Shown: in pieces, positions 20,709-22,101 of the stretch
How the letters are laid out: each line of letters begins with the position of its first letter
How positions within the stretch are numbered: the first letter of the stretch is position 1
Source of the DNA: a bacterium
GTDB taxonomy: Bacteria; Patescibacteriota; Saccharimonadia; Saccharimonadales; Saccharimonadaceae
Assembly (NCBI GenBank): GCA_030530485.1
Contig: JAUMUX010000001.1
Location: forward strand, 62,001 to 126,000
Length of the DNA: 64,000 nt
Reading direction: 5' to 3'
Made by a program: the position numbers and the translations under genes
Notes under the pieces: generated by a model
What the model was told of the DNA's origin: nothing
Databases searched by the model: none
What the model saw: only the letters and a program-made list of their open reading frames with translations

Positions 20709-21569
20709 TTAATTTATTCGCCATTCGTTGGCGCCGTTCGAAGAAATTATTCCTTTGATTTCGAGCATAGTTACGGCTTGGCTAAAATCGCTGGGTGATA
20801 TTTTCGAATTTTTGAGGATTTCTTCACCCTTTCGAACGCCTTTCGAAATTTGCTCAAGTATGGCGGTTTCGGCTGGTGTGTCGCCCTGAAGGAGCGAGGT
20901 TTGTTTTTCTTGCTTGGTTTTTGGAAAAAGAAAATCGATTAAATCTTGAATTTCGGCAAGCGGCTGGGCGCCTTGGCGGATTAGTTTGTTGCAGCCCGCC
21001 GAAAGCGGCGAAGTGATATTGCCAGGCACCGCGAAAATATCTTTTCCCTGCTCGAGCGCGTGGTTGGCGGTCGAAAGCGTCCCGCTGCGCGCGGCGGCTT
21101 CGACAATCACCACCACGTCAGCCAAGCCAGAAACGATACGGTTGCGCTCCAAAAACTGAAAGGGTAGCGGCGGCGTGCCTTCGGGATATTCGCTGATAAT
21201 CGCCCCGCCTGTTTCGAGGATTCGCTTTGCCATTGCGGCGTGCGAGCTCGGATAAGCCTTATCCACACCATTCGCCAAAACTGCCAGCGTAATTCCGCCC
21301 GCTTCCATCGCGGCGTTATGGGCAATTCCGTCAATCCCAAGCGCCATACCGCTCACCACAATTCCGCCATTACGAGCCACTTCGCTGGCGATTTTTTGAG
21401 CGATTTCTCGACCATAACTCGTAGGCTTGCGTGTTCCAATAATCGCCACCGTAGGAATTCGATTTTCTGGCAATTTACCTCGGTAGAAAAGTTTTTTCAC
21501 GGGTTGCGGAAAATGCTGCAAATCGGCAGTGTAAGGATGTTCCGCTGGAATAATTTCATTGATTTTCAT
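20709..21569 (-). CDS. dprA: DNA-processing protein DprA (natural competence)
   Basis: A 286-residue protein that loads RecA on incoming single-stranded DNA during transformation. The Rossmann-type DprA domain is clear: AIIGTRKPTSYG, VSGMALGIDGIAH, VLANGVDKAYPSSH, SEYPEGTPP, ERNRIVSGL and SGTLSTANHALEQGKDIFAVPGN. A small winged-helix (DML1-like) domain follows at about 225-286. Its presence supports natural DNA uptake, relevant to the over-abundant TTCGAA sites. Confidence 0.94.
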   Translation of the reverse strand: MKINEIIPAEHPYTADLQHFPQPVKKLFYRGKLPENRIPTVAIIGTRKPTSYGREIAQKIASEVARNGGIVVSGMALGIDGIAHNAAMEAGGITLAVLANGVDKAYPSSHAAMAKRILETGGAIISEYPEGTPPLPFQFLERNRIVSGLADVVVIVEAAARSGTLSTANHALEQGKDIFAVPGNITSPLSAGCNKLIRQGAQPLAEIQDLIDFLFPKTKQEKQTSLLQGDTPAETAILEQISKGVRKGEEILKNSKISPSDFSQAVTMLEIKGIISSNGANEWRIN

Positions 21570-21588: not shown

Positions 21589-21617
21589 TTGACTTATTTA
21601 ATAATTCGTGCTATTAT
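21589..21617 (+). promoter_or_regulatory. Forward promoter upstream of the 21.7-kb ncRNA
   Basis: TTGACT (21589-21594), a 17-nt gap, and TATTAT (21612-21617). A second -10-like TATAAT lies at 21682-21687. Either could start the RNA that ends at the terminator at 21885. Confidence 0.5.
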
Positions 21618-21692
21618 ATTGACAATTGATAAAATATAAAACGATTTTGTCAAAAGAACATATTACCTATTTGTTATAGTGTATAATATCCT

Positions 21693-21885
21693 ACTTTTGC
21701 ATCCTTTTCTTATCTCCCCCTCCTTTTCATTAGTAAGATATTATGCATAATAACCCCTTTGACCGGCGGACCCTTTGTTTGATTTGAGGTGGGTCTTAAG
21801 CTTCGAGAAATCGAGCCAGCAGATGGTGCGTCGAAGGGATAAAAGACCGCCTGAGCGATGCCCACCCGTGCTTAGGCGGTCTTTT
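21693..21885 (+). ncRNA. Candidate structured non-coding RNA near dprA, about 190 nt
   Basis: A TATAAT at 21682-21687 precedes an RNA without open frames. It can form GACCC/GGGTC (21769-21773/21791-21795), CTTCGA/TCGAAG (21801-21806/21831-21836) and a strong terminator AAAAGACCGCCT/AGGCGGTCTTTT (21841-21852/21874-21885). The terminator loop holds CCCACC (21861-21866), which can instead pair with GGTGGG (21788-21793), so a pseudoknot or a switch between two folds is possible. The 5' boundary is uncertain. The family was not recognised; it is neither tmRNA nor RNase P by eye. Confidence 0.55.
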
Positions 21886-21985
21886 ATTGTGATATAATAA
21901 CAAAATATTATCTTCAATTGTCAATGAGCTTATGTTAATAATTTCAATTCAAATTTTAGCATAAGCAGGTTATTTTTGCAAATGC

Positions 21986-22014
21986 TTGATTTTTTATAAA
22001 AGCTTTGATATAAT
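21986..22014 (+). promoter_or_regulatory. Promoter of tRNA-Gln
   Basis: TTGATT (21986-21991), a 17-nt gap, and TATAAT (22009-22014), about 12 nt upstream of the tRNA 5' end. Confidence 0.6.
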
Positions 22015-22026
22015 AGTTTTTGCCGT

Positions 22027-22101
22027 TGGGATGTCGCCAAGTGGTAAGGCACCAGGTTTTGGTCCTGGCATTCGGGGGTTCGAATCCCTCCATCCCAGCC
22101 A
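22027..22101 (+). tRNA. tRNA-Gln (anticodon TTG), CCA encoded
   Basis: A cloverleaf is readable: acceptor TGGGATG/CATCCCA (22027-22033/22091-22097), anticodon stem CCAGG/CCTGG with loop TTTTGGT giving anticodon TTG, T arm GGGGGTTCGAATCCCTC, discriminator G, and a genomic CCA at 22099-22101. The anticodon predicts Gln. Confidence 0.93.

Follow-up and report, generated by a model that had tools for sequence, protein, structure and literature searches.

Small RNAs of staphylococci and Bacillus with C-rich loops that bind the Shine-Dalgarno sequence are described in two reports (PMC9410917, PMC5419742). Such an exposed C-rich motif is found in RsaE/RoxS and IsrR of the Firmicutes. For the orphan ornate RNAs OLE, ROOL and GOLLD, PMC12286853 describes the formation of homo-oligomers. 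The window analysed here, a stretch of 64,000 nucleotides that is part of contig C7 of a 656-kb genome, holds next to the DNA-uptake gene dprA an RNA gene whose predicted fold exposes a C-rich loop complementary to the Shine-Dalgarno sequence, with CUCC in nearly all homologues.

The RNA gene, its neighbours and its distribution

The gene beside dprA is real and, with ca. 21621-21889, longer than first described. The interval given by the sequence-only reading, 21693-21885, cuts off the 5' third, the RNA beginning ca. 70 nt earlier, with two further hairpins and a second conserved C-rich loop. Position 21693 is ruled out as the RNA start, as it falls within HP3, the long hairpin; the TATAAT at 21685-21690 was discarded as paired stem sequence (21673-21695 with 21732-21754) and is probably not the RNA promoter. 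The features of the locus are:

20709-21569, - strand: dprA, the divergent neighbour, outside the RNA (adjacent and divergent in relatives)
21589-21617, + strand: RNA promoter TTGACT-17-TATTAT, extended by a TG before the -10 (same element in the same place in the relatives read)
21621-21889, + strand: whole RNA gene with predicted ends (promoter, terminator, fold z = -7.5, homologues)
21626-21653, + strand: 5' hairpin HP1, 21626-21635 with 21644-21653 (fold; 5' hairpin seen in other members)
21654-21670, + strand: single-stranded stretch, AAGAACAUAUUACC here, where other genera have the motif CGCACCUUAUACCCCC (diverged in this genus)
21673-21754, + strand: long hairpin HP3, 21673-21695 with 21732-21754 (fold; arm exchange test)
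21712-21723, + strand: C-rich HP3 loop AUCUCCCCCUCC, consensus [U]ACCCUCC, anti-Shine-Dalgarno-like (CUCC in nearly all homologues)
21755-21838, + strand: helix P1, 21755-21763 with 21830-21838 (compensatory changes in 8 of 9 pairs, 99.7% of cells paired)
21766-21801, + strand: helix P2, 21766-21767 with 21800-21801 and GACCC 21769-21773 with GGGUC 21791-21795 (compensatory changes)
21788-21793, + strand: GGUGGG, putative pseudoknot partner at site A, overlapping P2 (motif and position counts)
21825-21830, + strand: site B beside P1, GGUGCG here; GGUGGG, the putative partner, in many relatives (position counts)
21841-21885, + strand: terminator arm, a 16-bp stem (21841-21856 with 21870-21885), then AUU (fold; 8 of 8 modelled pairs covary)
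21857-21869, + strand: terminator loop GAUGCCCACCCGU, with CCCACC at 21861-21866 as the invariant putative pseudoknot half (97 of 97)

Transcription would start near 21621-21624. When relatives are read side by side, a conserved TTGAC-N17-TATAAT-like promoter lies just beyond the dprA start codon, and the RNA between promoter and terminator measures ca. 270 nt, or 350-450 nt in distant members. The 269-nt transcript folds with -87.8 kcal/mol (z = -7.5), a value equalled by 0 of 200 shuffles. Its strand is fixed as +, because the exceptions to Watson-Crick pairing in the helices are, on this strand, G-U (139 cells) and not A-C (6 cells), and because a T-run directly follows the terminator arm. 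A protein-coding reading of the region is ruled out by stops throughout all three sense frames. With its own promoter (21589-21617) and its own terminator, the gene is free-standing, as had been proposed.

Of 107 relatives in which dprA was detected or the upstream sequence extends for 1.5 kb or more, 92 have dprA next to the RNA in divergent orientation. On the downstream side the usual neighbours are pth and der, both oriented toward the RNA, with pth convergent in 59 of 87 relatives. As pth is convergent and dprA divergent, the RNA cannot serve as leader to a gene downstream in most relatives and would therefore act in trans. A co-directional downstream gene controlled by the RNA, as a cis-acting leader or riboswitch would need, is likewise missing in the window, where the tRNA-Gln at 22027-22101 has its own promoter-like TTGATT-17-TATAAT at 21986-22014. 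Both the position of this tRNA-Gln 3' of the RNA and its own promoter had been pointed out before; they hold for the window, but the order of genes is not general, any tRNA within 600 nt downstream being present in only 1 of 87 relatives.

On the opposite strand, a promoter-like match at 21640-21613, a possible promoter of dprA, overlaps the -10 of the RNA (21612-21617). In distant members this site carries the near-palindrome TTGCTAAAATAGCAA, which suggests a shared bidirectional promoter of the RNA and dprA. Just 3' of the terminator, a block TTGTCAATGAGCTTATG at 21915-21935 is kept in genomes of the genus and has TTGACA on the opposite strand.

R1, a covariance model of the RNA core, was built from 15 relatives. 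It matched 140 of 151 genomes of the family and 103 of the 105 near-complete ones, with one copy in nearly all, as well as 20 of 27 near-complete genomes in a mixed set of mostly other families of the order, together with earlier misses and class outgroups. Across the class, 207 of 245 near-complete genomes matched, every match lying within the same order (Saccharibacteria); among the genomes shown for the other orders and classes sampled there was none. Three matches elsewhere in the phylum, with E of ~0.001-0.006, are taken as chance, and the viral contigs searched gave no match to the RNA. The matches listed in a motif-pair scan of public species genomes are labelled Saccharibacteria, Saccharimonadia, TM7, or generically as 'bacterium' or Patescibacteria MAGs, with two oddities among those listed. 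L218 is a chance match in a coding repeat, and L202 (SEAL01000024.1), labelled Chloroflexi, has a complete copy of the RNA next to a dprA-like start and is probably a mislabelled MAG bin. The RNA is a single-copy gene of nearly all members of the order Saccharibacteria/TM7, tiny parasitic bacteria; being kept so widely in genomes below ~1.5 Mb, it is likely to be important in the order.

Helices and the probable terminator-loop pseudoknot

When 15 relatives are aligned by sequence only, 98.3% of the helix cells pair and both sides have changed in 13 of 24 pairs, compared with 33-50% of cells and 2-3 pairs for slid-partner controls in the same alignment. With 97 sequences aligned to the model, an alignment that leans toward the model's structure, compensatory changes are seen in 22 of the 24 core pairs and 98% of the cells are paired. 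Covariation in a model built from relatives, which the sequence-only reading had proposed as a check, is thus strong. The long hairpin HP3 was tested without the model, its two arms being located by flanking sequence only. The arms pair at 86.5% of positions within species vs 65.6% (maximum 68.6%) when exchanged between species, and by this measure they co-evolve. CUCC is found in the HP3 loop almost throughout the order, usually as UACCCUCC.

Some members depart from this layout. The region inside P1 is expanded to ~150-200 nt in L059-L065, L140-L153, L172-L191 and order-level loci, with conserved stretches of its own, e.g. GACUAUYCAGUAGU and GGAGUUUUGGACAUCGACGCUU. Outlier L111 has a shifted loop, UGACCCACCC, L137 has the loop CUAUGCCCACCCUU, and L155, an incomplete MAG, has a terminator loop without CCCACC. 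The HP3 stem of L068, L080, L090 and other distant members reads GUUUUAGAGC...GCUCUAAAAC, like the start of the Streptococcus pyogenes Cas9 repeat; this likeness is chance, the stem being simply self-complementary. A pairing of CGCACC in the 5' motif with GGUGCG at the P1 flank, perfect in some genera, is missing from this genus and from distant members and was rejected.

The sequence-only reading had located GACCC at 21769-21773, GGTGGG at 21788-21793, GGGTC at 21791-21795 and CCCACC at 21861-21866, all of them correctly, and had paired GGGTC with GACCC (P2) and GGTGGG with CCCACC. Both pairings hold up, P2 by compensatory changes and the second by a different kind of evidence. All of the 97 aligned sequences have the same CCCACC in the terminator loop; with no variation the loop cannot covary, and its partner was tested by presence and position instead. 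Between the P1 strands, GGUGGG is present in 148 of 158 distinct homologues, and the isomers of the same composition TGGGGG, GTGGGG, GGGGTG and GGGGGT in 0, 1, 16 and 1, respectively. The fifth isomer, GGGTGG, found in 92 of the 158, is itself complementary to the terminator loop.

Anchored on P1, two classes of partner were distinguished: site A, the P2 strand (GAGGUGGGUC), to which the window belongs, and site B, immediately 5' of the P1 3' strand. After 7 sequences with a mis-assigned P1 had been left out, GGUGGG was seen at site A only in 52, at site B only in 72, at both in 24 and at neither in 6 of 154 sequences, i.e. at one or more of the two sites in 148; 4 of the 6 sequences lacking an exact partner have GGUGUGG. 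Counted by genus, the corresponding numbers are 26, 33, 12 and 3, and these 3 compare with ~14 expected under independence (Fisher 7e-8, a P that is indicative as genera are not fully independent). As the loop columns are invariant, the support for the CCCACC-GGUGGG pseudoknot consists of partner swapping and not of classical covariation; on these counts the pseudoknot is well supported and quite probably formed. The P1-to-loop spacing of ~19 nt in most members is compatible with a terminator arm that folds back along P1.

Where site A lacks GGUGGG, the P2 strand may change together with its partner, e.g. GGAUC...GAUCAC, and P2 is therefore a real helix. The GGG at site A seems to be held fixed because of the two partners it serves. 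In the window, these three bases (21791-21793) are claimed by both P2 (GACCC) and the terminator loop, with duplex estimates, made without loop penalties, of -7.1 kcal/mol for GACCC in P2 and -12.1 kcal/mol for the GGUGGGU-GCCCACC duplex. P2 might still be compatible with a shorter pseudoknot formed by GGUG and CACC. The mutual exclusion of the two pairings that had been claimed stands where GGUGGG sits in P2, window included, and there P2 and the pseudoknot compete; it does not apply to the 72 of 154 homologues whose only intact partner lies beside P1 without overlapping P2, so that in many relatives there is no competition. Since this overlap is missing from the site-B lineages, switching is not regarded as a conserved function, and the conserved feature is the pseudoknot, not a switch. 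This shows how a pseudoknot may evolve: one half stays in place and its partner moves, a course that ordinary covariation tests would miss.

Possible modes of action

Beyond the conservation of the gene, its helices and its strand, all established here, a mode of action can be proposed. The gene would encode a lineage-specific, single-copy, trans-acting structured RNA of ~270 nt (up to ~450 nt in relatives), made from its own sigma-70-type promoter and ending at its own terminator. Its predicted fold comprises the 5' hairpin, the long HP3 displaying the C-rich loop, and the P1/P2 domain, onto which the terminator arm would fold back so that the invariant CCCACC loop pairs with GGUGGG. In this lineage the partner would double as a P2 strand, leading to competition; elsewhere it would lie beside P1, without any. 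Our best guess is that the RNA may act through the conserved C-rich, anti-Shine-Dalgarno-like loop. It is conceivable, if somewhat unlikely, that the 3' end is protected and the fold locked by the pseudoknot, and that mRNAs or ribosomes are the targets of the RNA, reached by pairing of the CUCC loop with GGAG of the Shine-Dalgarno type. The whole chain, from gene through fold and pseudoknot to action by CUCC, is put forward tentatively, as an explanation in which we place limited trust. The C-rich loop need not bind mRNA: its full complement GGAGGGU has 0 occurrences within the window, and the usage of Shine-Dalgarno-like GGAG, GAGG or AGGA is modest (just 14 of the 45 window ORFs scored).

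The 3' tail of 16S rRNA reads AUCACCUCCUUU, and its likeness to the HP3 loop leads to another explanation, namely a housekeeping ribonucleoprotein RNA. Its loops would bind proteins, and the HP3 loop would attract a factor that reads the tail (Era, S1), aiding ribosome maturation or storage and not acting on chosen mRNAs. The single-copy, order-universal occurrence and the conserved CUCC are in agreement with this, as is the loop of the window's genus (AUCUCaCCCUCCUUUU in L002), which resembles the textbook 16S tail. The likeness, however, is short and has inserted bases, and the protein partner is a candidate; we consider this explanation unlikely. Also unlikely is the proposal that the order has a core RNA, so far undescribed and no less constant there than RNase P RNA or tmRNA, which would act on the ribosome as a mimic of the 16S 3' tail and whose terminator hairpin would be half of a pseudoknot with a repeatedly moved partner site.

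An RNA expressed divergently with dprA might also act in DNA uptake or its control. The conserved adjacency to dprA and the promoter-like match opposite the -10 region, suggesting overlapping promoters, would fit such a competence-linked role, but the adjacency may persist merely through promoter overlap, the other flank is pth, a translation gene, and a search that was not systematic found no pairing to the dprA mRNA; we regard the role as improbable. Lastly, GGUGGG-CCCACC might be a contact between molecules, through which the RNA would form homo-oligomers as OLE, ROOL and GOLLD do. The invariant loop is complementary to an exposed G-run, and the report on orphan ornate RNAs (PMC12286853) provides a precedent; the near-constant P1-loop spacing suggests instead an intramolecular geometry, and oligomer formation appears quite improbable.

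Comparison with known RNAs

That the RNA is one of the known housekeeping RNAs (6S, SRP RNA, tmRNA or RNase P RNA) in diverged form is mostly refuted and would be very surprising: Rfam models find neither 6S nor small SRP RNA in these genomes, which leaves those places vacant, but the same genome has its tmRNA and RNase P RNA at other loci (contig C9), the absence of the Ffh M-domain and, across the phylum sample, of SRP RNA leaves no SRP to serve, there is no 6S-type open-promoter fold, and Rfam searches give no match even when E is relaxed to 1. In Rfam 15, the search that the sequence-only reading had suggested for recognising a known housekeeping RNA, the window has no family above the curated threshold except tRNA, its matches at E up to 10 being chance; 15 relatives have none above threshold, and in 18 further relatives a search with E up to 1 yielded nothing but chance matches to miRNAs. 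The 6S model (RF00013) found nothing in 8 genomes of the order including this one, though the same model detects just 6 of 14 controls, so that a diverged 6S elsewhere could be missed. Neither small SRP RNA (RF00169) nor the Ffh M-domain was found in 8 genomes of the order, and small SRP RNA was found in 0 of 143 near-complete genomes of the phylum; a lack of SRP has been reported for Parcubacteria (PMC4508563). The SRP54 GTPase domain is above cut-off in just 1 of 8 genomes of the order, as a weak partial match. A replacement of SRP by the RNA is ruled out, as SRP loss is phylum-wide and the RNA, bound to the order, does not follow it.

The RNA is thus not 6S, SRP RNA, tmRNA or RNase P RNA. 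No description of it was found in a literature search, and the family is new and absent from Rfam; the mechanism could still turn out to be a familiar one. The RNA is a concrete, testable target in those Saccharibacteria that can be cultivated (TM7x and relatives).

With 6S RNA it has in common that it is a single-copy, stable RNA of that size range, but it lacks the long hairpin with a central bubble. Like bacterial SRP (4.5S) RNA it is single-copy, small and housekeeping-like, the difference being that no SRP RNA or Ffh M-domain is found in the genomes tested. The likeness to raiA, OLE, ROOL and GOLLD goes further, as these are also conserved, strongly structured, lineage-bound, pseudoknotted and orphan in function; this RNA differs in its helices, its 270-450 nt, its lineage and the missing Rfam match. 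Compared with RsaE/RoxS and IsrR, it is longer, universal in the order and not condition-specific, and known here from sequence alone, with no Rfam match in sequence or structure. With these it shares the exposed C-rich motif complementary to the Shine-Dalgarno sequence and a free-standing gene with its own promoter and terminator.
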